From Pigmentiphaga sp. NML080357 (lineage in GTDB: Bacteria; Pseudomonadota; Gammaproteobacteria; Burkholderiales; Burkholderiaceae_B): 64,000 nucleotides of DNA. The stretch is from positions 62,001 through 126,000 of the forward strand of contig NZ_NINW01000049.1 in assembly GCF_002188465.1 (NCBI RefSeq), in the 5' to 3' direction. Shown in pieces: positions 811-12,418 of this stretch. A model generated the notes under the pieces. That model saw only the letters and a program-made list of their open reading frames with translations, made no database searches and was not told where the DNA came from. Position 1 is the stretch's first letter, and each line of letters opens with the position of its first letter. The translations under genes were made by a program, and so were the position numbers.

Positions 811-1740
811 TCAGGCCAGGGCTTGCGAAACAGGGGTGACCCAGTGGCCGAAACGTTCGTTGCGGCCGCGGACCGCATCGAAGTAGAGCGATTGCAACTG
901 CCGGGTGAGCGGCCCAGGGGTGCCGCTGCCGATGGGCCGGTCGTCGAGCGCGACGACCGGCGTGACTTCCGCCCCGGTGCCGACGAAGAACGCCTCGTCC
1001 GCGATGTACATGGAATCGCGCGTGAAAAACTCCTCGCGCACCACGAGGCCCTGGCTGCGGGCCAGCTGGATGATGGAATCTCGGGTGATGCCGTCGAGGA
1101 TGTATGTCAGCGGCGGCGTGATCAGCTGGCCGTCGCGCACGATGAAGACGTTCTCCACCGAGCCCTCGGCCACGTGGCCCTGGGCGTCGAGCAACAGCGC
1201 TTCATCGTAGCCTCCGCGCAAGGCATCGGTCCGCGCCATCTGGAACAGCATGTAGTTGCCGCAGGCCTTGGCCTTGGACATGTTCGAATTGACGTGATGC
1301 CGCGTGTAGGACGAGGTCTTGACTCGGGTACCCTGCTCGAGCTTGCCCTGCCCCAGGTACTCGCCCCAGAACCAGACGGCGATGCCCACGTTCACCCGGC
1401 AGCCGCTGTAGTTCAGGCCCATGCCGCCGTAGCCGATGTAGGCGACCGGACGCAGATAGCATTGAGCATGGCCGCTGGCGGCGACGGTTTCGCGGCAGGC
1501 CTCGATGATGGCGTCACGGCTGTAGGGGATGTCCAGCCCGATGATCTTGGCTGAATTGAAGAGTCGGTCTATGTGCGCATGGAGCCGGAAGATCGCCGTC
1601 CCGTGCTCGCCCTCATAGGCGCGTATGCCTTCGAAGACCCCGAAACCGTACTGGAAGCTGTTGCTGACGAAATGGACCGACGCGTCGGCCCAGTCGACCA
1701 GCTTGCCGTCGATCCAGATGGGTGAACCCTGCTCTTCCAT
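811..1740 (-). CDS. ilvE: Branched-chain amino acid aminotransferase
   Basis: This 309-residue protein is a fold-type IV PLP aminotransferase that interconverts valine, leucine or isoleucine with the 2-oxo acids. The N terminus (PIWIDGKLVDWADASVHF, then YGFGVFEGIRAY) is typical of IlvE. Lys158 in the SKAKACGNY segment matches the PLP lysine of IlvE, and EGSVENVF is the conserved cofactor-binding stretch. The start at 1740 was chosen because GGGAGGAGG sits just upstream. An in-frame upstream extension to 1914 has no ribosome site and would overlap the marR gene. It lies between marR and ggt, suggesting amino-group handling in a catabolic set rather than only biosynthesis. Confidence 0.9.
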   Translation of the reverse strand: MEEQGSPIWIDGKLVDWADASVHFVSNSFQYGFGVFEGIRAYEGEHGTAIFRLHAHIDRLFNSAKIIGLDIPYSRDAIIEACRETVAASGHAQCYLRPVAYIGYGGMGLNYSGCRVNVGIAVWFWGEYLGQGKLEQGTRVKTSSYTRHHVNSNMSKAKACGNYMLFQMARTDALRGGYDEALLLDAQGHVAEGSVENVFIVRDGQLITPPLTYILDGITRDSIIQLARSQGLVVREEFFTRDSMYIADEAFFVGTGAEVTPVVALDDRPIGSGTPGPLTRQLQSLYFDAVRGRNERFGHWVTPVSQALA

Positions 1741-1817
1741 GACCGCCTCCTCCCGGAGAACGCCCCACGCGCCTGCGCCGTGCGGCAAACAAGGCCGACC
1801 AAAGGACTGCTCGGAAA

Positions 1818-2336
1818 CTACTTGATGGGCGAAATCTTCAGGTTGCGCAGCATGCGCTGGAGGGTGGTCCGCAGCACCTCCAGGTCGGCGGGCGGAACGT
1901 CGTGGACCGACCATTCGTACTGCGCCGACACCGCCGGCAGCATGGCATCGAGAAGGTCGCGCCCCGCTTCCGTAATGGAGATCATGACGGCCCGGCCGTC
2001 GTCGTCGTCCTGTTCGACCGTGACCAGTCCTTGGGCTTCCATCCGCCCGATGGTGCGGCTGAGGGTGGACGACTCGATCAAGGTCAGTTCGATGAGATCG
2101 CGCATGCGGGCGTGATCGCGACGCGTGAGGGCGATCAGCACACGGTACACGCTGGCCGTCTGATTGAAGGGCCGCAAGGCTTCGGTCAGGCTGATGGCGA
2201 GACGTTCCGACACCTGCCGCAGCAGATAGGCGGTTTTCTTTTCGCTGCGCCGATCGTTGAAGGCGTCGAGTTCGTCTTCTACTGGATCGACCGGTTTCCG
2301 CTTGGGGGAACGCATCGAGCTGGGAGCCATGGCCAT
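1818..2336 (-). CDS. MarR family transcriptional regulator
   Basis: A protein of about 172 residues with a MarR-type winged helix. The recognition region reads MRDLIELTLIESSTLSRTIGRMEAQGLV, followed by an acidic wing (EQDDDDGRAV) and ITEAGRDLL. MarR proteins bind DNA as dimers and are usually released by small ligands. The gene lies 77 bases upstream of ilvE on the same strand, so it probably controls itself and the ilvE-ggt pair. The start is uncertain: ATG at 2336, ATG at 2330 and GTG at 2348 are all in frame and none has a strong ribosome site. Confidence 0.85.
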   Translation of the reverse strand: MAMAPSSMRSPKRKPVDPVEDELDAFNDRRSEKKTAYLLRQVSERLAISLTEALRPFNQTASVYRVLIALTRRDHARMRDLIELTLIESSTLSRTIGRMEAQGLVTVEQDDDDGRAVMISITEAGRDLLDAMLPAVSAQYEWSVHDVPPADLEVLRTTLQRMLRNLKISPIK

Positions 2337-2403
2337 TGATCGCGACACGGTTTCGATGGCGTATTAAGGCACAAATAAATCTGCATGTGCAAGTATTTTT
2401 ACA

Positions 2404-2516: not shown

Positions 2517-3368
2517 CTACTGGCGCGCCGGCGCGGTCGGAACACGGCCGTCCACATCGGTGAACCCGTATTCCTTCGCAAGTTCTGCGACCAGAAGAAG
2601 CTGGCCGCTTTTCTGCATCACGTTCACGTCCGCCGCCAGCGCCGCGACGGCCCTGCCGGCGAACTCCGCCGATTCGCCGTGTTCCAGGATGCGCTTGGCA
2701 AGAGCCTCGGGCACGCGGTCCGGCTGGGCGAGGAACTTCTCGCTCTTGATGAAGCCAGGCCAGATCACCACCGAAGCCACATTGAAGGGCCGCAAGTCAT
2801 GCGCCATGTCGAGCGCCAGCTTGTTCACGCCCGCCTTCTGCACGCCGAAGGGAACGTTGAAGGTGTAGCGCACCGCGCCGCCCGACGAAGTATTCACGAT
2901 GAGGCCTCGTTTCCTGGCGACCATGTGAGGTGCCACCAGGCGGCTCGTCACATAGTGGGAGCGCAGGCCCACGCGCATCAGCATTTCCCAGATATCGTCG
3001 TCGAGTTCCCAGAACGGCTTGTTGACCGGCATCTGGGCAGGAGCGGCGAAGACATTGTTCACGAGCACGTCGATGCGGCCGTCCTGCTCGTCGAGCACGC
3101 GATCGATGGCTTGCTTGACGCTGCCATCGTCCGCGTGGTCGCACACGACACCTATGGCTCGCCCGCCCCGGCGCTCGATCTCGTCGATCGTCTCCTCCAG
3201 CGAACCCGGCCATTGGGAACCGCCGCGCGCGAGGGTACGCCCGGTTACGTAGACGGTGGCCCCGGCTTCGCCAAGCGCGAGGGCGACACCCTTGCCCACG
3301 CCTCGGCTGCCCCCCGTAACCAGCGCAATGGAGCCGTCCAAAGGACGTGGAGTGATCGAGTCGTTCAA
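2517..3368 (-). CDS. SDR family oxidoreductase (DHRS1-like) lacking the catalytic tyrosine
   Basis: This 283-residue short-chain dehydrogenase has a Rossmann nucleotide site (TGGSRGVGKG, residues 18-27) and the NNVF segment. The overall pattern resembles the DHRS1-like branch. At the usual YxxxK active site the sequence is FGVQK (Phe174, Lys178), so the catalytic tyrosine is replaced. TTG at 3368 is taken as start because AGAGGA lies eight bases upstream and it leaves 28 bases to livM. An ATG further upstream, at 3470, would overlap livM. It is the last gene of the liv operon, so it probably acts on the imported compound or a derivative. Confidence 0.85.
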   Translation of the reverse strand: MNDSITPRPLDGSIALVTGGSRGVGKGVALALGEAGATVYVTGRTLARGGSQWPGSLEETIDEIERRGGRAIGVVCDHADDGSVKQAIDRVLDEQDGRIDVLVNNVFAAPAQMPVNKPFWELDDDIWEMLMRVGLRSHYVTSRLVAPHMVARKRGLIVNTSSGGAVRYTFNVPFGVQKAGVNKLALDMAHDLRPFNVASVVIWPGFIKSEKFLAQPDRVPEALAKRILEHGESAEFAGRAVAALAADVNVMQKSGQLLLVAELAKEYGFTDVDGRVPTAPARQ

Positions 3369-3396
3369 TTTGCAGTTCCTCTTGTATTGGATGAGC

Positions 3397-4392
3397 TCAA
3401 ATCTTGCGCCGGGCCATCGTCCTTCGCATGCGTAGCCGGCGAACGCCCGGGGCGATGTACACCGACGCAAGCATCACGGTGCCGTAGATGACGCCGGTCC
3501 ACTCTTGCGAGACTCTTTCCGCCAGGTCGGGCACGAATACGAGGAACGCAGCCGCCACGAAGCTTCCGGACGCGTAGCGGGGGCCGGAAATGGCTACGCC
3601 TACCAGCAGGAAGAGCGAGAGAAAGACATTGAAGCTGTCGGGCGAAACGAAACCGCTGACGGCCGCACTCAAGGCTCCCGCCGCGCCGACCATGGCCGAA
3701 CTGACGGCGAACGCGACAGCCTTCCACTTCGGCACGTCGACGCCCATCGCCGTGGCTGCGGTAGGCTGGTCCCTCAAGGACATCCAGGCCAGGCCGCATG
3801 GGCCTTTCAGCAGCCTGTCGGCCGCCACGAAGATGAGCCCGCACCATAAGGCCGCCAGGAGAAGAAGCCACTGATCCGCCGACATGAAGATCAGCGGGGA
3901 TTCCGCCGGATCCAGGCTCAGGCCGCTCACGCCGCCGGTCCATCCCTCGAACGCGGAATGCTTGAGCAACTGCGGCAAGGCGAGCGCCAGCGCAAAGGTT
4001 GCCAGCGCCAGGTAGGGCCCCGCAAGCCTCACCGCGGGCAGTCCGAACAGGAAGCCGGCGAGTCCGGTAACGAGCGCCGCGACCGGCACGGTCGCCACTC
4101 CCGGCGCCCAGCCATGGGTGCTCAGGACGCCTGCCGTATAGGCGCCGACGGCGAAGAACGCGCCGTGCCCGAGGGAAACCTGTCCGCTGGCCCCGACCAG
4201 GAGCTGCATGCTGCGCACCGCGATCGCGAAGACGAGCAGCGTCGAGACCTTGAATGCCCAGTAGCCGTGCAGCCCCATGGCCGTGATCACAACGGCAATC
4301 ACGAGCAGGGGAACGAGCAGCCGGTCGACCCTGTCCGCCAGAGGGCGTCGGATATGCACGGACGGTCTCGCAAGTGTGTCGATCGTGCTCAT
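3397..4392 (-). CDS. livM: Branched-chain-type ABC transporter permease LivM
   Basis: This 331-residue polytopic inner-membrane protein has the LivM signature VGASGQVSLGHGAFFAVGAYT near residue 65 and about eight to ten hydrophobic segments. It forms the membrane channel with LivH. The start overlaps the livH stop by four bases (ATGA), showing translational coupling. The C terminus ends in a basic cluster (RRLRMRRTMARRKI), as expected for a cytoplasmic tail. LivM/H paralogues transport branched-chain amino acids, amides, urea or aromatic acids, so the substrate cannot be read from the permease alone. Confidence 0.92.
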   Translation of the reverse strand: MSTIDTLARPSVHIRRPLADRVDRLLVPLLVIAVVITAMGLHGYWAFKVSTLLVFAIAVRSMQLLVGASGQVSLGHGAFFAVGAYTAGVLSTHGWAPGVATVPVAALVTGLAGFLFGLPAVRLAGPYLALATFALALALPQLLKHSAFEGWTGGVSGLSLDPAESPLIFMSADQWLLLLAALWCGLIFVAADRLLKGPCGLAWMSLRDQPTAATAMGVDVPKWKAVAFAVSSAMVGAAGALSAAVSGFVSPDSFNVFLSLFLLVGVAISGPRYASGSFVAAAFLVFVPDLAERVSQEWTGVIYGTVMLASVYIAPGVRRLRMRRTMARRKI

Positions 4393-5261
4393 ACGCGTCG
4401 GATGATGCGGCTGCCGAAGAGCCCTTGAGGCCGGAGAACCAGGATGGAGAACATGGCGACCAGTGCGATGGTCAGCTTCAGTTCGTTGCCTGTCACGAAG
4501 GCGCCGAGCAGGTTCTCGCCCACGCCGATCGCCAGGCCCCCGACGATGGCCCCGACGGGACTGTCCACCCCGCCGAGCACCGCCGCGGCAAAGCCGTAGA
4601 TCATGATCCCGCTCATCATGTGGGGTTCCAGAAAGACGATGGGCGCCGCAAGCAGGCCCGCGATGGCGCCGATGACGCCCGCGAGCCCCCAACCCATCAT
4701 CAGGATGCGGCGCACGTTGATGCCGGAGAGCTCGCTAGACAACGGCTGCATGGCCACAGCCCGCATGGCGAGTCCCAGGTTCGTGGTCTTGAAAAACACC
4801 GTCATGCCCGCGAGCACGAGCACCGTCACGGCGATGGTGCCGATGGCGTGCGGCGAGAGGGATCCCTGTCCGAGCCCCTCGAGCACCGCGAACGGGCTCG
4901 GGAAGGTCTCGCTGTGATGGCCGAAGACAAGACCGATGACGGCCGAGATGGTGATCATGAGCGCGATGAAGACCGTCACTACGGCCAGGATGGGTGCATT
5001 GTGCAGAGGCCTGAGCAGTACGCGTTCCACGAGCGCTCCCGAGAGGAACCCGAAGGCGATCGCCGCGAAGGCGGCAACCCAGTACGGCAGTCCGGCGTGG
5101 ATCAGCGCAGCCGCAACATAGGTGGAAAGCAGCGCCATCTCGCCCTGGGCGAAGTTCACGTGATTGGTCGCGCGATAGATCATTACGAGCGCCAGCGCCA
5201 GCATCGCATAAAGACAGCCGTTGACCAGACCCGCGGCCACTTGCTGAGTCAGCTCATTCAT
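4389..5261 (-). CDS. livH: Branched-chain-type ABC transporter permease LivH
   Basis: This 290-residue integral membrane permease opens with MNELTQQVAAGLVNGCLYAM and has the family pattern ATNHVNFAQGEMALL and GFAAAVLGGVDSPVGAIVGGLAIGV. It partners LivM. ATGA overlaps on both sides, with livF upstream and livM downstream, place it firmly within the liv operon. Confidence 0.93.
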   Translation of the reverse strand: MNELTQQVAAGLVNGCLYAMLALALVMIYRATNHVNFAQGEMALLSTYVAAALIHAGLPYWVAAFAAIAFGFLSGALVERVLLRPLHNAPILAVVTVFIALMITISAVIGLVFGHHSETFPSPFAVLEGLGQGSLSPHAIGTIAVTVLVLAGMTVFFKTTNLGLAMRAVAMQPLSSELSGINVRRILMMGWGLAGVIGAIAGLLAAPIVFLEPHMMSGIMIYGFAAAVLGGVDSPVGAIVGGLAIGVGENLLGAFVTGNELKLTIALVAMFSILVLRPQGLFGSRIIRRV

Positions 5262-5989
5262 GTCGACTCCTGCTGAAGTCCAAGGTAGGCGGCGCGAACC
5301 CGGGGGTCGCCCCGCAATGAATTGGCGTCGCCCGCGATCGCTACGCGTCCCACCTCGAGAACGCAGGCCGAATCGGCGATCTCGAGCGCGAGGCGGGCGT
5401 TCTGCTCGACAAGCAGTATGCCGAGCCGGGCCTCCTGCTTGATTTCGCGCAGCATGTCGAAAATCTGCTTCACCACCAGCGGCGCCAGCCCGAACGACGG
5501 CTCGTCCAGCATGAGCAGCCGCGGCCTGAGCATCAGGGCGCGGGCGATGGCGAGCATTTGCTGCTCGCCTCCGCTGAGCAGGCCGGCCATCGACCGCCTG
5601 TATCCGGACAGTTTCGGAAAGAGCTCGTACATGCGGCCCATGTCCTCGCGGACTCCGGTGCGGTCGCGGCGCGAGATGGCGCCCACCATCAGGTTTTCCT
5701 CGACGGTCAGCGCCGGAAAAGTGCCTCGGCCGTCGGGCACATGGGCGACCCCGAGCCGTGCGATGGCATCGGTCGACATGCCGTCGATACGGCGGCCCTC
5801 CAGTTCGATGCTGCCCTTGAAGGTCACCATCGCCCCGCTGATCGCGCGCAGCAATGTGGTCTTGCCTGCGCCATTTGCCCCCAGCAGCGTCGTCACGCCC
5901 CCCATCGGGATCTCGAGCGAGACGTCGTGCAGCACCGCATGCGAGCGATAGGCCGCCCGCAAGCCGGACACCCTGAGCAGCGCGCTCAT
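5258..5989 (-). CDS. livF: ABC transporter ATP-binding protein LivF
   Basis: This 243-residue ATPase has Walker A GANGAGKT, signature LSGGEQQMLAIARAL, Walker B LLMLDEP and the LivF-typical VPDGRGTFPALTVEENL. It supplies energy for import together with LivG at the inner face of the membrane. The ATG at 5989 overlaps the livG stop by four bases; an upstream in-frame extension to 6214 would lie inside livG and was not used. Confidence 0.93.
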   Translation of the reverse strand: MSALLRVSGLRAAYRSHAVLHDVSLEIPMGGVTTLLGANGAGKTTLLRAISGAMVTFKGSIELEGRRIDGMSTDAIARLGVAHVPDGRGTFPALTVEENLMVGAISRRDRTGVREDMGRMYELFPKLSGYRRSMAGLLSGGEQQMLAIARALMLRPRLLMLDEPSFGLAPLVVKQIFDMLREIKQEARLGILLVEQNARLALEIADSACVLEVGRVAIAGDANSLRGDPRVRAAYLGLQQEST

Positions 5990-6786
5990 GAGCCGCTCCC
6001 GAGGTAAGCGCAGATGACGGCCTCGTCGCTGGCGACGAGCTCGGGCGTACCATCCGCGATCTTCTTGCCGAACTCCAGCACCACCACCTGGTCCGAGACG
6101 CGCATCACCAGGTTCATGTGATGCTCGATCAGCAGGACCGACACGCGCATCGCGTCGCGGACCTCGCGGATCCAGCTCGCGAGCTCGACGACTTCCTCGT
6201 GGTTCAGCCCGCAAGCGGGTTCGTCGAGCAGGAGGAGCCGAGGCGACATGGCCAGCGCCCGGGCCAGCTCGACGCGCTTTCTCGTTCCGAAGGGAAGGTC
6301 GGCCACGATCTCGTCGGCAAGGTCCGCGAGACGGGTCTGGGCCATCAGCTCGTCGACACGCCGGCTTACCCGGCGGCGGTCCTCGCGCGCCGCGCGAGTC
6401 ATGAAGATCGAGGAGAGGTAGCGGCCGCCGAAATCGCCGAAGCAGCCCGCCTCGACGTTCTTGCGGACGCTCAGGCGGTCGAAAAGGGCGACGTTCTGGA
6501 ACGTGCGCGCGATGCCAGCCGAACCTACCCGATGCGCGGGCATGCGAGTGATGTCGGCGCCGGCGAAGCGGATGGTGCCTTCGCTGGGCTCGTAGATCCT
6601 GCTGAGACAGTTGAAGAGACTGGTCTTGCCGGCGCCGTTGGGCCCGATGATCCCGCAGATGGAATCCGGGGCGACGTCGAAGGAGACCGAATCGAGCGCC
6701 GTCACGCCGCCGAAGCGCAGGCTCAGGTCGCGTACGGCCAGCAGAGGCTGGCTTGCGCCAGCCTGCGTTGGAGTCTGAGCAGTCAT
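5986..6786 (-). CDS. livG: ABC transporter ATP-binding protein LivG
   Basis: This 266-residue ATPase has Walker A GPNGAGKT, the LivG-type signature LPFGTRKRVELARAL (LPFG in place of LSGG, normal for this family), Walker B LLLLDEPACGLN and a C-terminal DGTPELVASDEAVICAYLG segment. It pairs with LivF. It starts two bases after the livK stop. Confidence 0.93.
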   Translation of the reverse strand: MTAQTPTQAGASQPLLAVRDLSLRFGGVTALDSVSFDVAPDSICGIIGPNGAGKTSLFNCLSRIYEPSEGTIRFAGADITRMPAHRVGSAGIARTFQNVALFDRLSVRKNVEAGCFGDFGGRYLSSIFMTRAAREDRRRVSRRVDELMAQTRLADLADEIVADLPFGTRKRVELARALAMSPRLLLLDEPACGLNHEEVVELASWIREVRDAMRVSVLLIEHHMNLVMRVSDQVVVLEFGKKIADGTPELVASDEAVICAYLGSGS

Positions 6787-6788
6787 AG

Positions 6789-7997
6789 TCAGGCGAGCGG
6801 TACCCAGAGCTTGCCGTCGAAGCGCTGCAGCCGCAACTGGCGAATCGTCTGGTAGTTGGTGGCGGACGTGCTGACCGTGATGCCGGGTATCAGGTGAGGC
6901 AGCGCCACCTCCTGCAGTGACGTGGCCTCTTTCATGATGCGGGCCGATGTCAGATCGTCGCCGCAACGGCGCAGCACTTCGGTCATCAGCACCGCCATGC
7001 TGTAGCCCGCGAAGTTGAGCTGCTCCGTCGTGTCGCCCTCGGGGTAATACTTCTTCATGAAGGCCAGCCACTTCCTGTATTCGGCGTCGTCCTCCCACTC
7101 GGGATCGCCCGCCGTCTTGCTCGGGGTGGAGGAGACGAGGCCGATGCACTTCTCCAGCCCCGCCACGCGCAGGACCGTCGGTATGAAGTTGCTCGCGATG
7201 GGCAGGATGTGCAGCGGCTGCCAGCCCAGGTCGCTTACCTTCCGTATGGCCTGGATGGTGAACTTCGGCGTCGTGACGTTCATGAAGACGTCCGCCTTCG
7301 AAGCCGCTAGGCTGATGACCTGCGATTCGATCGTCGGCGCGGTGACTTCATAGGCTGCGACGGCAGCCACCGCGACCTTGCTGCCGAGTTGCCGGAGACG
7401 CTCTTTGAAGGCGGCAAGATACTCCTTGCCGAAATCGTCGTTCTGGTAGAGCACGGCCACCTTGGCCGCGGGCTTTACCCGGTGGACGTACTCGGCATAG
7501 GCCGAGGCTTCCAGCGAGAAAGTCGGCAGGCCAGGCAGGGTATAGGGGTAGTTCTGCGGATCGGCGAAGCGATCGCTGCCCGCATAGACGAAGAGCTGCG
7601 GGATCTTGCGGCTATTCAGGTACTTCTGAACCGCCGCGTTCTGGGCGGTGCCCATGCTGGAAAACATGGCCAGCACCCGCTCCCGCTCGACGAGGTTGCG
7701 AGTCTGCTCGACAGCCTTGGCGGGATTGTAATTATCGTCCAGCGAAATGAGACGGACGCTGCGGCCATTGACGCCGCCGGCCTCGTTGAGCATCGTGAAG
7801 TAGCGGGACTGCACCTTGCCTACGGGACTGAGCGCGGACAGCGGTCCGCTATAGGGCATGGTCTGCCCCAGCCTGATCTCGCCTTTGAACTGCCGGACGG
7901 CTTGCTGGCCCCATGCGGGCCCGGCACAGACCAGGGGCGCCATTGCGAGTTGAAGCAGCCGGCGACGCTTCGGCGCCGGCGCGAGGATGCTGCCCAT
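6789..7997 (-). CDS. livK: Periplasmic substrate-binding protein of the Liv-type ABC importer
   Basis: This 402-residue protein has a basic N terminus, a hydrophobic core and an Ala-x-Gly-type cleavage region near residue 30 (CAGPAWGQQ), so it is exported. The body is a type I periplasmic binding fold (GQTMPYSGPLSALSPVG, RLISLDDNYNPAKAVEQTRNLVE, VAVLYQNDDFGKEYLAAFKERL). The LNEAGGVNGR segment is typical of LivJ/LivK-like receptors for amides or aromatic acids. AGGAGAC lies six bases before the ATG. It is the first gene of the operon livK-G-F-H-M-SDR, behind a strong promoter at 8052-8080. Confidence 0.9.
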   Translation of the reverse strand: MGSILAPAPKRRRLLQLAMAPLVCAGPAWGQQAVRQFKGEIRLGQTMPYSGPLSALSPVGKVQSRYFTMLNEAGGVNGRSVRLISLDDNYNPAKAVEQTRNLVERERVLAMFSSMGTAQNAAVQKYLNSRKIPQLFVYAGSDRFADPQNYPYTLPGLPTFSLEASAYAEYVHRVKPAAKVAVLYQNDDFGKEYLAAFKERLRQLGSKVAVAAVAAYEVTAPTIESQVISLAASKADVFMNVTTPKFTIQAIRKVSDLGWQPLHILPIASNFIPTVLRVAGLEKCIGLVSSTPSKTAGDPEWEDDAEYRKWLAFMKKYYPEGDTTEQLNFAGYSMAVLMTEVLRRCGDDLTSARIMKEATSLQEVALPHLIPGITVSTSATNYQTIRQLRLQRFDGKLWVPLA

Positions 7998-8051: not shown

Positions 8052-8080
8052 ATTATCTTCCTTGAAAGATATATAGTCAA
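8052..8080 (-). promoter_or_regulatory. livK operon promoter with dyad operator in the spacer
   Basis: On the minus strand, TTGACT (8080-8075) and GATAAT (8057-8052) are 17 bases apart, a near-ideal housekeeping promoter about 50 bases before the livK ATG. A dyad, TATCTT-N6-AAGATA, fills 8054-8071, between and partly over the boxes. The promoter facing the Rieske operon has the same arrangement, so both are probably repressed by the same protein, most simply the Arm-MarR regulator encoded between them. Confidence 0.7.
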
Positions 8081-8107: not shown

Positions 8108-8950
8108 CTACATTTTCGCGATCAATTTGCGAAAGCACGCATCGACCGACTCCAGTTCCTCGCGGGAGACGCCGCTTGCCGCGACGATCTTGGCGAGCGT
8201 GGCGCCTATGCGCGTGATGGCCGCATCGGCGATGCGCCGCCCGGCCGCGGTCAGGCGGACGAGTTCCGAGCGCCGGTCGTCCTCGGCCGCTACCCGCTCG
8301 ATAAGCCCGGCACCCTTCAGCCTGTCCAGCCGCTTCGTAATGGCGCCGGACGTAATCAGCAATTGCCGGAAAAGGTCGGTCGGGCGCATGGCCCTGGCCG
8401 ACCCGTTGCGCCGCAAGGCAAGCAATACGTGGAGCTCGCCGACATTGACTCCTGCCTCCTTTGCTATGGCGCCGACGCGCTGCTCATGCAGGACGTGCGC
8501 ATACTCGATGCGGAGGAAGAAGCCCGCGAGCCAGAAATCGATGTCGGGGCGCTCCACCGCCCAGCTTTCGGAAATGCGATCCAGCCGGCTTGGCCGCAGT
8601 TCTCCCATGCGCCGCTCGCTGGCCGAATGCAGCGCTCCCTCGGCGCCGGGCCGCTGCGAGGCGGGCAGGACGCCCCGGTGCCAGGCGGCCAGCGCCTTGA
8701 GCGCCTGCTCGTAGGTGAGGGAATGAGGCGAGGGCTTGCCCGATTCGTGGCTGCGTCCCAGCCGGGTCTGCTTGTACTTGCCGTTGCCGACGAACTTGCG
8801 CCCATACCACGTCGAACTTCGCGCCCCCTTGTAGTAGCCAAGGTAGACGCCGGGCTCCACGAGTTCCCAATAGGGCTTGGCGCTGGCTCGCAGCGCCGCC
8901 CTCGCGGAAGCCGAGTCGAGCCGGGGAGGGATTTGTTCCGAGGTTTCCAT
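8108..8950 (-). CDS. Fusion regulator: integrase arm-type DNA-binding domain joined to a MarR domain
   Basis: A 280-residue protein with two parts. Residues about 13-92 (ALRASAKPYWELVEPGVYLG, then TWYGRKFVGNGKYKQTRLG and SLTYEQALKALAAWH) resemble the N-terminal arm-site-binding domain of tyrosine recombinases; no catalytic recombinase domain follows. Residues about 125-280 form a MarR winged helix (MRPTDLFRQLLITSGAITKR, wing AAEDDRRSELVRLTAAG). The start at 8950 begins with METSEQ and lacks a clear ribosome site; an earlier ATG at 9007 is possible. The gene sits between the livK promoter and the Rieske promoter and probably represses both until a ligand, perhaps the Liv substrate, binds. The domain assignment is from pattern recognition. 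Confidence 0.8.
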   Translation of the reverse strand: METSEQIPPRLDSASARAALRASAKPYWELVEPGVYLGYYKGARSSTWYGRKFVGNGKYKQTRLGRSHESGKPSPHSLTYEQALKALAAWHRGVLPASQRPGAEGALHSASERRMGELRPSRLDRISESWAVERPDIDFWLAGFFLRIEYAHVLHEQRVGAIAKEAGVNVGELHVLLALRRNGSARAMRPTDLFRQLLITSGAITKRLDRLKGAGLIERVAAEDDRRSELVRLTAAGRRIADAAITRIGATLAKIVAASGVSREELESVDACFRKLIAKM

Positions 8951-8959
8951 GCGGCGAAT

Positions 8960-9045
8960 CTTACCAAACAGACCAAACTTTTCCAAATTCCATCGATGGC
9001 CGCGCAACGCGTTTGTCGAGCACGATTTTTACCTAACTTACCCAA
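8960..9045. repeat. Two pairs of tandem 9-base repeats upstream of the Arm-MarR gene
   Basis: CTTACCAAA (8960-8968) abuts CAGACCAAA (8969-8977), and TTTACCTAA (9028-9036) abuts CTTACCCAA (9037-9045). The consensus is YTTACCNAA. Direct tandem repeats are the kind of site recognised by arm-type domains of recombinases, so they may be where the unusual N-terminal domain binds to regulate its own gene. The binding role is inference. Confidence 0.5.
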
Positions 9046-9085: not shown

Positions 9086-9114
9086 TTGACTTTTTATCTT
9101 CTCTGGAAGATTAT
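9086..9114 (+). promoter_or_regulatory. Rieske operon promoter with dyad operator in the spacer
   Basis: TTGACT (9086-9091) and GATTAT (9109-9114) are 17 bases apart, 40 bases before the oxygenase ATG. The 16-base dyad ATCTTCTCTGGAAGAT (9096-9111) begins four bases after the -35 box. The livK promoter carries its dyad at the identical offset, which argues for one shared regulator. Confidence 0.7.
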
Positions 9115-9153: not shown

Positions 9154-10377
9154 ATGACTACTCGAGAAGAAAACGAGTTGCTGACCCGCGTCGAGAACGG
9201 CGCCGCCATGGGCCGCATGCTTCGGCAGCTCTATTGGGTTCCCGCGGTGCTCTCGTCGCGCCTGGAAGCGGACGGCGCGCCCGTGCGCGTGAAGCTGTTC
9301 GGCGACCGCTTCGTCGCCTACCGCTCGACCGACGGCCGCGTTGGCTTTCTCAACGAAGGCTGTCCGCACCGCGGTGTGTCGCTCGCCCTGGCCAGGAACG
9401 AAGACAATGCCCTGCGCTGCATCTTTCACGGATGGAAGATCTCCATTACAGGCGAAGTGCTCGAGGTTCCCAACGAGGTCTCGAACCCCGAATGCTTCAG
9501 GAAAACCGTGCCCGTCAAGCGCTACCCCGCGGTCGAAGGCGCGGGCCTGGTCTGGGTCTGGCTTGGAACCGGGGACGCGCCGCCGGCGCCCAATTTCGAA
9601 TGGATGAACCTGCCGCCGGAACAGGCATACGCATGCGGGCTGGAACTCAATTCGAACTGGGTCCAGGGTGTCGAGGCGACGATCGACTCGTCGCACATCG
9701 CCATCCTGCACCAGAGCCACCTGTCGAACTCGGCATCCGACATGGCGGCCACGCGCATCAACACCGCGGTGCGCTACCAGTTCGAGGATACGTCCTACGG
9801 CTTCCGGGCCGCCGCCCTGCGCGAAGGCGCATCCGGCGAATGCGTGGCGCGGGTGACGGAGTTCATCATGCCCTACTACGGGCTGATCCCGCCCATCAAC
9901 ACCGGCAAGAGCCAGGACCGGACCGTGATCATCGCGGTGCCCGTGGACGATACCCATCTCATCCAGTGGTACATCTTCTACAACACCGAAAGGCCTCTCG
10001 ACTCGATCAAGCGCACGCAACGCGCGGACACCTGGCCCATGGCCGGCGGCATCGTCGATTCGGCCGACCAGATCTGGGGCCAGAACCGCCGCCTGATGAA
10101 GCACGGCAATCACACCGGCTATACCGACATCGTGGTCGAGGACTTCGTCACCCAGGTCAGCATGGGGCCGATCGTGGATCGCTCGGAAGAATACCTGTGC
10201 TCGGCCGACCAGGCCATCGTACGGTTCCGCCGCCAGCTCCTGCAGGCAGTGCGCGCATTCGAGGCGGGCGACATCCCGCGGAGCGCCCGGCCCGAGGCGC
10301 GCGACTATTCGCAGATCACGGCCACCGGCGGCCGCATGGCGTCGATCGACGATGATTGGCGCGTCCTGCCGCGGTGA
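9154..10377 (+). CDS. Rieske non-haem iron oxygenase, alpha subunit
   Basis: This 407-residue protein has a Rieske [2Fe-2S] domain with Cys70-Pro-His72 and Cys89-x2-His92 (CPHRG and CIFHGW). A catalytic domain follows, with the mononuclear iron region EATIDSSHIAILH (Asp178, His181, His186). The layout and length match phthalate-dioxygenase-like single-subunit oxygenases, which hydroxylate or demethylate aromatic and related substrates. GAGGAGA lies just before the ATG. Ferredoxin and reductase genes follow directly, making a three-component system. The substrate is unknown; the co-regulated Liv importer suggests a small polar compound. Confidence 0.9.
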   Translation: MTTREENELLTRVENGAAMGRMLRQLYWVPAVLSSRLEADGAPVRVKLFGDRFVAYRSTDGRVGFLNEGCPHRGVSLALARNEDNALRCIFHGWKISITGEVLEVPNEVSNPECFRKTVPVKRYPAVEGAGLVWVWLGTGDAPPAPNFEWMNLPPEQAYACGLELNSNWVQGVEATIDSSHIAILHQSHLSNSASDMAATRINTAVRYQFEDTSYGFRAAALREGASGECVARVTEFIMPYYGLIPPINTGKSQDRTVIIAVPVDDTHLIQWYIFYNTERPLDSIKRTQRADTWPMAGGIVDSADQIWGQNRRLMKHGNHTGYTDIVVEDFVTQVSMGPIVDRSEEYLCSADQAIVRFRRQLLQAVRAFEAGDIPRSARPEARDYSQITATGGRMASIDDDWRVLPR

Positions 10378-10380
10378 ACC

Positions 10381-10731
10381 ATGAGCACGGTCGACGATTC
10401 CAGTACGTGGGAGACCGCCTGCCCGCTCGACGCGGTGCGCGAGGGAACGCCCAGGGGCCTGAAGCTCAAGGGGATTCCCGTGGCGCTCTACAAGATCGAA
10501 GGCGCGGTATATGCGACACACGACGTCTGCACCCACGCCTATGCGCATCTCTCGGACGGCTACATCGAGGGGCATACGATCGAATGTCCGCTGCACGGCG
10601 CCATCTACGACATCCGCGACGGCAAGTGCCTTGCCGTCGCGGCCAGCGACCTGAAGACCTATCCGGTCAAGATCGAAGGGGACACGGTCAGCGTGCTGCT
10701 GCCGCGGGCCGAGGGAGGCAGCGGTGGATGA
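10381..10731 (+). CDS. Rieske-type ferredoxin of the oxygenase system
   Basis: This 116-residue protein has Cys50-x-His52 and Cys69-x2-His72 (DVCTHAYAH, ECPLHGA), a small soluble Rieske ferredoxin that carries electrons from the reductase to the oxygenase. It starts three bases after the oxygenase stop. The stop overlaps the reductase start by eight bases. Confidence 0.92.
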   Translation: MSTVDDSSTWETACPLDAVREGTPRGLKLKGIPVALYKIEGAVYATHDVCTHAYAHLSDGYIEGHTIECPLHGAIYDIRDGKCLAVAASDLKTYPVKIEGDTVSVLLPRAEGGSGG

Positions 10732-11911
10732 GGCACGCACGACGATAGCCATCCTCGGCGGCGGCCACGCGGGGGCGGCCGCCATGCTTCGGCTGCGGCA
10801 ACTGAACTACCTCGGCAAGATCGTGCTCGTCTCGGACGAAGGGGCTCCACCCTACGACCGCCCCGGCCTTTCCAAGGAGTACCTGCTCGGCGAGGTCGAG
10901 ACGCCCAGGCCGCTGTTCGCGGATACCCTGCCCAACGAGCGCGTGCTCGTGTCGACACGCGCGCTCGGCATCGAACTTGCCGGCCGGGTGGTGCGCACCG
11001 ATAAAGAGGACATTCGCTACGACCGGCTGCTCGTCGCCACCGGCGCCGACGCACGGCGCTTGAACGTTCCCGGCGCGCATCTTCCAGGCATCCACACGCT
11101 GCGCACTTCCGCCGACGCCGCGCGAATAGCCGATAGCCTCGCCCATTGCGTCTCGACACGGCGGCCCTTGCTCATTGTCGGAGGGAGCTGGATCGGGCTG
11201 GAGGTGGCCGCGGCGGCGCGCCGGCGCGGCGTGGATGTCGTGCTGCTGGAACAAGGCGAGCGCCTGTGCCAGCGTACGGTACCCGCATCGGTGGCGGCGC
11301 GCCTTCATGCGATGCACGAAAAGAACGGCGTGCGGCTCAGGATGGCGGCCCAGGTGGCAGCGTTCGAGGGGGCCGCGAGAGTCAGCCATGCACGGTTGGC
11401 CGACGGCACGACGCTCGAGGTCGGGGCGGTCGTCGTGGGCATAGGCGTCCTGCCGAACCTCGGCGTTGCCCGGGAGGCCGGGCTTCATATCCGGCAGGGC
11501 ATCGTCATCGATGCCCTGGGCAGGACTTCGGACCCACATGTCTACGCCGCGGGAGACGTCGCCGAAGTCCCCTGCCGCTGGCAGGCCAGACCCGTCCGCT
11601 ACGAATCATGGTCGGCCGCGAACACCCAGGCCCGCACCGCCGCCGAAAGCATGCTGCACGACCTGGGCCGCGCCGATCTTTCGCCTCTATCCGCGCCCGA
11701 GGTGCCCTGGTTCTGGTCCGACCAGTACGGCAAGACGCTGCGATTGGCGGGCAGCCCGCTTACGTCCACGGAGTCCAAGCTCCTCCGCGACGACGAGGAA
11801 GGCTTCCTCGAGGGCTTCTTCAGCGACGGCCGCCTCGTCGGCATCGCCGCGCTCGGGCATGCGCGCGAGTTCCGAAACCTGCGAAGCGGCATCGAGCCGC
11901 GCGCAAGCTGA
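10724..11911 (+). CDS. FAD-dependent ferredoxin reductase
   Basis: This 395-residue flavoprotein has an FAD site (ILGGGHAGAAAMLRLRQ), an NAD(P)H site (LLIVGGSWIGLEVAAAARRRG), a second FAD motif (DPHVYAAGDVAEVP) and a C-terminal reductase domain after about residue 320. It oxidises NAD(P)H and reduces the neighbouring ferredoxin. The start is GTG at 10724 with GAGGGAGG just upstream. The PPYDRPGLSKEYLLGE stretch is typical of reductases of ring-hydroxylating systems. Confidence 0.92.
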   Translation: MDEARTTIAILGGGHAGAAAMLRLRQLNYLGKIVLVSDEGAPPYDRPGLSKEYLLGEVETPRPLFADTLPNERVLVSTRALGIELAGRVVRTDKEDIRYDRLLVATGADARRLNVPGAHLPGIHTLRTSADAARIADSLAHCVSTRRPLLIVGGSWIGLEVAAAARRRGVDVVLLEQGERLCQRTVPASVAARLHAMHEKNGVRLRMAAQVAAFEGAARVSHARLADGTTLEVGAVVVGIGVLPNLGVAREAGLHIRQGIVIDALGRTSDPHVYAAGDVAEVPCRWQARPVRYESWSAANTQARTAAESMLHDLGRADLSPLSAPEVPWFWSDQYGKTLRLAGSPLTSTESKLLRDDEEGFLEGFFSDGRLVGIAALGHAREFRNLRSGIEPRAS

Positions 11912-11962
11912 CCGTCGCCGCAGGCGACCCACGATCTCCACCACAAACGAGAGGAGCATGAA

Positions 11963-12418
11963 ATGACGTCTTCCACCCTTCCCACCCGCATTCTTGGCTT
12001 CGACACGGCCGCTGTCGATTGGATCGCCCTGGCACCGGGCGCCTGGTATAAGCCCGTGCGCTTCGCGGCCAACGGCGAAGCCTGGGTCAGCCTCGTCAAG
12101 CTCGCCCCGGGCGCCTCGGTTCCGCGCCACCGCCACGTGGGCGCGGTCCAGGGCTTCAACCTGCAAGGACGCGGCAGGTTCGTGGAGGACGGCGTGGTCA
12201 CGACGCCGGGAACCTTCACCTTCGAACCGGCGGGCACGGTCGATACGCTCGTCGCCGAGGGCGATGAAGAACTGGTCATTTTCTTCATCGTCGATGGCCC
12301 TGTGGAATTCCTGTCGGCCGATGGCGACATCGTGCGGCGCGAGACCCAGGCGACGAAGATCCGCAGCTTCGAAGAGAATGTGCAGGCCGCGGAGGAGATC
12401 AACGTGGTTCGCGCCTGA
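11963..12418 (+). CDS. Cupin protein, 2,4'-dihydroxyacetophenone dioxygenase-like
   Basis: This 151-residue single cupin has a likely metal-binding motif 1 (PGASVPRHRHVGAVQGFNLQGRG) and motif 2 (PGTFTFEPAGTVDTLVAEGDEE). Cupins of this branch include iron-dependent C-C bond-cleaving dioxygenases. GAGAGGAGC precedes the ATG. It lies 51 bases after the reductase, so it is probably the last gene of the Rieske operon and could cleave the hydroxylated product. The specific reaction is inference. Confidence 0.75.
   Translation: MTSSTLPTRILGFDTAAVDWIALAPGAWYKPVRFAANGEAWVSLVKLAPGASVPRHRHVGAVQGFNLQGRGRFVEDGVVTTPGTFTFEPAGTVDTLVAEGDEELVIFFIVDGPVEFLSADGDIVRRETQATKIRSFEENVQAAEEINVVRA

Follow-up and report, generated by a model that had tools for sequence, protein, structure and literature searches.

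Repressors of the MarR family (PF12802/PF01047) are built on a winged helix, dimerize via their N- and C-terminal helices, bind palindromic operators at the promoters under their control and are released by small-molecule ligands; their genes lie divergent from the operons they control. Tyrosine integrases carry, at the N-terminus, an arm-binding (AB) domain (Arm-DNA-bind, DUF4102, lambda Int, Tn916 Int). According to PMC8138268, the AB domain, exemplified by Tn916 Int, is made up of three beta-strands plus one helix, and its presence in a tyrosine recombinase strongly predicts a mobile-element function. IntS, the integrase of the KplE1 prophage, represses its own promoter by binding directly in the vicinity of the -10 box, a region that contains an arm-type site (PMC2951348), and lambda Int is a heterobivalent DNA-binding protein that bridges two kinds of sites via a flexible linker (PMC4880445).

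Here we analyze a gene that joins the two kinds of proteins, located in a 64,000-nucleotide stretch of the genome of Pigmentiphaga sp. NML080357 (hereafter, the window). The encoded protein, hereafter the fusion, is a member of the MarR family, and what is new is its second head. It differs from MarR-family repressors in an N-terminal extension of about 110 residues that includes an integrase arm domain, and in having direct repeats as a putative second kind of DNA site; its 16-bp palindrome is of a type that also precedes many of its closest arm-less relatives. With the AB domain of tyrosine integrases, it shares the sequence profile, the N-terminal position and direct repeats before the gene, but it has neither a core-binding nor a catalytic domain, and its partner is a MarR repressor. 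The proposed likeness to KplE1 IntS is that of an arm-domain protein acting at its own promoter, which in KplE1 overlaps an attachment site with arm-type sites (PMC2951348). IntS, however, is a functional recombinase, whereas the fusion carries a separate repressor head and no recombinase core. In the AP2/ERF factors, a three-stranded DNA-binding fold that has been likened to integrase and endonuclease domains is used in transcription factors; these are, however, eukaryotic, belong to another sequence family and have no MarR partner. PheR, which is of the IclR type, was dropped as a comparison. A preliminary description of this DNA, made from the sequence, knew of no characterized regulator of such design, and none is found among the literature matches listed, mostly, from outside subscription journals.

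The fusion gene (8108..8950, minus strand; ATG at 8950, stop at 8108) encodes 280 amino acids. The AB domain (residues ~11-92; 8675..8920, minus strand), delineated from integrase N-terminus profile matches, the arm tree and a weak structural model, is followed by a variable linker of about 26 residues (~93-118) and by the MarR winged-helix domain (residues ~119-280; 8111..8596, minus strand). The MarR half exceeds the Pfam cut-offs for both MarR_2 (40.1 bits, cut-off 27) and MarR (36.9 bits, cut-off 24.6), and by reading contains DDRRS in the wing of the winged helix. Searches of Pfam, NCBIfam and PHROGs with the 280-aa protein produced no match to recombinase families including Phage_integrase. 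The claim of the preliminary description that a complete MarR winged helix stands in place of the recombinase core is thus borne out.

The two-part architecture proposed there is kept in three genomes. Full-length orthologues are present in a Burkholderiales MAG (L004; 79% identical) and on the megaplasmid of Variovorax paradoxus VAI-C (L035; 55-57% identity), where the record annotates the long form; these three, two of them close, are the known members of the fusion, and none contains stops or frameshifts in the fusion frame. The dN/dS values for the arm, linker and MarR parts, respectively, are 0.113, 0.385 and 0.054 between the window and L004, and 0.419, 0.746 and 0.197 between the window and Variovorax, all of them rough at dS of 1.0 to 1.8. 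The arm half is under purifying selection. Because the full-length orthologues are conserved and the arm dN/dS is low, chance is further excluded.

Among 200 relatives, a full-length match came from the window's own genome only; the other 45 genomes match over the MarR half, with the earliest matches starting at residue 68 (G054, in a frame with two stops) and at residue 91. No further fusions were seen in the genomes covered by the profile searches described below (order, phylum and further families). Of 72,556 plasmid records, 3 yielded an N-domain match, namely, the Variovorax fusion and two integrases, and a scan of 84,980 species genomes by short exact peptides found one fusion, that of the 79% identical Burkholderiales MAG; all of these counts are limited by sampling and sensitivity. 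Three further matches were rejected: a Cupriavidus match, for which the protein was read through and the arm domain is absent, and the Azospirillum and SRS16 matches, for which the proteins as annotated, with 174 and 197 residues according to their coordinates, could not accommodate the two domains.

At E<=5, a search with residues 1-102 on their own gave no hit in Pfam or PHROGs, profile searches of the window N-domain against solved structures yielded chance-level matches only, phage records gave nothing for the arm domain, and two viral scans gave no relatives. The profile of the N-domains of the three orthologous fusions (A2) was matched in 10/399 genomes of the order at E<=0.001 and in 13/398 genomes of the phylum at E<=0.01 (the window's own genome counted in both), in 1/399 genomes of another family of the order at E<=1e-6, in 10/249 genomes of another family of the phylum at E<=1e-5 (two loci shared with the phylum search) and in 1/3 genomes of a third family of the phylum at E<=1e-5; the 249-genome and 3-genome searches together repeat three loci of the phylum search, and all the counts are lower bounds, with 12 to 19 first-look candidates scored in most genomes. 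The best match outside the window is to an integrase ORF, with an E-value of 1.6e-15, and, with the window, L062 and L063 set apart, the matched frames look on reading like tyrosine integrases or parts of them (in L105-L113, frames of 414-466 aa except for L110, the reading covered the first 110 residues; L110, L064 and the remaining frames were read whole). Phage_integrase (Pfam) was detected in all seven proteins run, that is, five A2-matched frames and two plasmid integrases, and the N-domain is present in 26 of 40 viral loci fetched via an integrase alignment. The profile of the three orthologues thus finds integrase N-termini, in agreement with the earlier proposal that residues 1-90 resemble the arm domain of tyrosine recombinases.

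Two phylum matches, L062 and L063, do not read as integrases and were set aside, as were weak N-domain matches in the window's own genome (E 0.14 and 0.26); at L003, one of these, the listed ORFs are not integrase-like and one reads as a methionine aminopeptidase. The 156-aa frame of L110 contains the arm domain and an apparent start of the integrase core and ends early; it reads as a truncated integrase or a gene fragment.

Among 25 arm sequences, 5 weakly match Pfam Arm-DNA-bind_3 (PF13356; best 2e-4) and one matches Arm-DNA-bind_1 (0.16); the window domain itself matches none. The weak Arm-DNA-bind_3 matches apparently tie the group to known arm domains. Residues common to the integrase arms, L20, G38, W48, R51 and A83, are kept in the fusion. 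A single-sequence structural model of low confidence (mean pLDDT 47) places helices at residues 13-23 and 80-94 and strands at 36-41, 48-55 and 58-65; disorder or a different fold of residues 1-95 was not what this model gave, and its order of three strands and a helix is the one described for AB domains. In a tree that also includes 46 arms from integrases, the arms of the three fusions group into a single clade (support 100/96), in line with a single origin of the fusion. Altogether, at the level of sequence, the window ORF is confirmed as an integrase-type AB domain joined to a MarR repressor, with no recombinase core.

The fusion gene lies in a similar setting in the three genomes. Divergent from it, the window contains a predicted target operon that, by Pfam, encodes a LigXa-like Rieske oxygenase, a Rieske ferredoxin, an FAD reductase and a ChrR-like cupin (9154..12418, plus strand). 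Downstream, on the same strand as the fusion gene, lies a second predicted target operon, with a Peripla_BP_6 substrate-binding protein, branched-chain-type ABC transporter genes and a short-chain dehydrogenase (2517..7997, minus strand; assigned by Pfam for 6789-7997 and 2517-3470, and by reading and L035 synteny for the transporter genes between them). In the annotated Variovorax cluster, these types of genes follow one another as they do in the window. In L004, the oxygenase, ferredoxin and cupin are readable, with no reductase between ferredoxin and cupin; the opposite flank is similar to the beginning of the substrate-binding gene, a short distance from the end of the contig. Consensus matching alone predicts a sigma-70 promoter for the Rieske operon (TTGACT-17-GATTAT; 9086..9114, plus strand) and one for the ABC operon (TTGACT-17-GATAAT; 8052..8080, minus strand). 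Elsewhere in the window, a 176-aa ORF (1818-2348, minus strand) looks by eye like an ordinary MarR regulator, and its end overlaps the 5' part of a branched-chain-aminotransferase-like ORF, also assigned by eye (811-1914, minus strand).

When the intergenic DNA of the three genomes is aligned, a conserved 16-bp inverted repeat of the ATCTT-N6-AAGAT type is apparent before both operons. In the window, these predicted MarR operators are ATCTTCCAGAGAAGAT (9096..9111), over the spacer and the first -10 bases of the Rieske promoter, and ATCTTTCAAGGAAGAT (8055..8070), in the same position over the ABC promoter; across the three genomes, the palindrome overlaps the spacer and first -10 bases of a promoter-like hexamer pair in 6 of 6 places. 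The extended form ATCTTNNNNNGAAGATAA occurs in exactly two exact copies in the 5.73-Mb genome, both beside the fusion gene (control, 0), and the single further match with one mismatch is the opposite strand of the same site. The arm-less MarR relatives (L006-L034, L036-L038) carry the same layout before their genes: ATCTT-N5/6-AAGA[TC] precedes 15 of 32, against a shuffle mean of 0.01 (the start was guessed for L017, L018, L020, L022 and L037, which have no methionine in range). Therefore, the palindrome goes with the MarR domain. Among the 15 palindrome-bearing relatives, 5 have two copies, and many read ATCTTGA-NN-TCAAGAT.

Between the palindrome and the start codon of the fusion gene, each of the three genomes contains two arrays of TTDGGYAAR-like units in 9-bp steps. 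In the window, array 1 (TTGGGTAAG TTAGGTAAA; 9028..9045, minus strand) contains the sole exact TTRGGYAARTTRGGYAAR of the genome, and array 2 (TTGGAAAAG TTTGGTCTG TTTGGTAAG, the first two units degenerate; 8960..8986, minus strand) ends 9 bp before the start codon; both have a 9-bp period. For TTRGGYAARTTRGGYAAR, only the exact match counts because, at up to 3 mismatches, the genome yields 39 matches vs 44 for the reversed control. The exact motif, which was defined at the fusion locus by inspection, is found 3 times in the window, 2 times in L004 and 5 times in L035 on one strand and 0 times on the other, numbers reached by 0/2000 shuffles; Variovorax has one extra copy beyond the palindrome. 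In the 7360 bp before the 32 arm-less relatives, it occurs once. A motif-free count of direct 9-mer pairs finds the window unremarkable (reached by 27/200 shuffles), with 1/200 for L004 and 0/200 for L035, and the best self-match at 9-bp spacing is 7/9 in the window, 6/9 in L004 and 9/9 in L035. Array 2 also overlaps a weak promoter-like match towards the fusion gene (TTGGAA-17-TAAGAT; 8/12), present in L004 as well; with a promoter this close to the start codon, the transcript could have almost no leader.

A link between the repeats and the arm domain predicts direct repeats in arm-bearing integrases as well, and we tested this prediction by searching the 150 bp before integrase start codons for tandem repeats with 8/9 identical positions or better. 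In a first set of 20 leaders (L060, with no visible start codon, and L062 and L063 left out), 12 contain an 11-bp tandem (shuffle expectation, 0.22), 3 a 10-bp tandem and 14 either. In a second set of 23, to which the 40 viral loci contributed 14 (chosen for having both an arm match and upstream sequence, with the copies L082 and L085 excluded), the numbers are 12, 8 and 15, respectively, against about 5% per spacing in random windows of the same loci; L113 and L081 were omitted for near-identical leaders, and L083 and L084 are close relatives and not independent. The 11-bp repeats begin 25-86 bp upstream of the integrase start codon. Neither a 10-bp nor an 11-bp tandem was detected in 6/20 and 8/23 leaders, among them that of L052, the best-scoring arm, which also matches the fusion repeats poorly. 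The same test at 9-11 bp is passed by one of the three fusion leaders (L035; the window and L004 fail) and by 2 of the 32 arm-less leaders. Repeat-bearing integrases are L043-L051, L053, L058, L059, L061, L064, L066, L071, L077 and L079, as well as L083, L084, L086-L088, L094, L104-L107 and L109; the L086 leader has four copies of AACGGGACA, arranged as two pairs with 10-bp spacing immediately upstream of the start codon. The repeat sequences vary from integrase to integrase, as expected for element-specific arm sites, and tandem repeats of 10-11 bp before the start codon may help to find the arm sites of this integrase group.

We further scored integrase leaders with a matrix of the fusion repeats (46 leaders, reduced to 43 by dropping three that are near-identical). 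The top three, L111 (TTGGGTAAG at -26), L105 (TTGGGGAAA at -41) and L058 (TTGGGGAAG at -27), are three of the five integrases with a GYY[KR]G arm (GYYKG in the fusion; Mann-Whitney p=0.002, for a grouping chosen after L111 was seen). The arm score correlates with the leader score (Spearman 0.37, p=0.015; reverse strand -0.21, p=0.17), and overall the coding-strand scores of the 43 leaders are not significantly above the reverse-strand scores (p=0.15). The spacing differs, with a period of 9 bp in the fusion vs 10-11 bp in the integrase leaders. The case for the repeats is carried by their recurrence in three diverged genomes together with the comparison of integrase leaders.

The two motifs sort with the two domains. 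The simplest mechanism would be a bivalent repressor. We consider it probable that the fusion is a dedicated local heterobivalent repressor, with the MarR head on the palindromes and the integrase-derived arm head on the repeats. A dimer of the MarR half would occupy the 16-bp palindrome at the core promoter of each flanking operon and block both operons until released by a ligand, probably an aromatic compound that the ABC system imports and the Rieske oxygenase attacks. The arm half, on its variable linker of about 26 residues, presumably binds the direct repeats before its own gene, which would provide for autoregulation and tether the repressor near the Rieske promoter, possibly, with looping of the 50 or 109 bp between the palindrome and the arrays. 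Each element of such a mechanism has a precedent, given the autorepression by IntS and the bridging by lambda Int. The suggestion of the preliminary description that the arm domain was recruited as a second DNA-binding head gains support from this pattern, with the repeats tracking the arm domain and the palindrome tracking MarR.

The arm domain would derive from a tyrosine integrase of a mobile element, possibly, along with the leader and arm-type repeats of that integrase. The similar placement of the repeats before the start codon suggests a joint acquisition of arm domain and leader repeats from an int gene; the repeats could also have originated separately, considering the difference in spacing. 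Only tentatively, and with odds that we put somewhat below even, do we propose that a single step linked a MarR gene to the 5' end of an int gene, comprising both the leader repeats and the arm domain, giving a heterobivalent repressor that bridges palindrome and arm repeats, in a regulatory parallel to the way integrases bridge arm and core sites during recombination.

Other readings deserve less credence. The arm could be a conserved passenger that lacks specific DNA binding and serves as a dimerization or solubility module or as a protein-contact surface, leaving regulation to the MarR half via the palindromes, which on their own account for control of both operons; the faster evolution of the arm compared with the MarR half (dN/dS 0.42 vs 0.20 against Variovorax) would fit. 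We nevertheless find this unlikely because one repeat motif is kept in the three genomes and nearly absent before the arm-less relatives, leaders of integrases whose arm motif is similar contain sequences like the fusion repeats, and the characteristic integrase-arm residues are retained. About equally unlikely is the explanation under which the direct repeats serve another regulator or are promoter or leader elements that resemble integrase arm sites by chance. The overlap of array 2 with the promoter-like match in the window and L004, the definition of the motif after inspection of the fusion locus, and the unremarkable window repeats once the motif is disregarded speak for it, but the motif recurs on one strand of three diverged intergenic regions, the exact tandem is unique in the genome, and arm and leader scores correlate on the coding strand and not on the reverse strand. 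Finally, most of the arm-less relatives start shortly before the MarR domain, but an annotation artefact, with a plain MarR protein starting inside the ORF and the N-domain an untranslated relic, is highly improbable in view of the three uninterrupted frames, the low arm dN/dS between the window and L004 and the long form annotated in Variovorax.

If the fusion indeed is a heterobivalent repressor, the AB domain would be reusable outside recombination as a transcription-factor module, one that may bring its own DNA sites. With three natural versions and a clear split into two domains, this locus makes bivalent repression directly testable.
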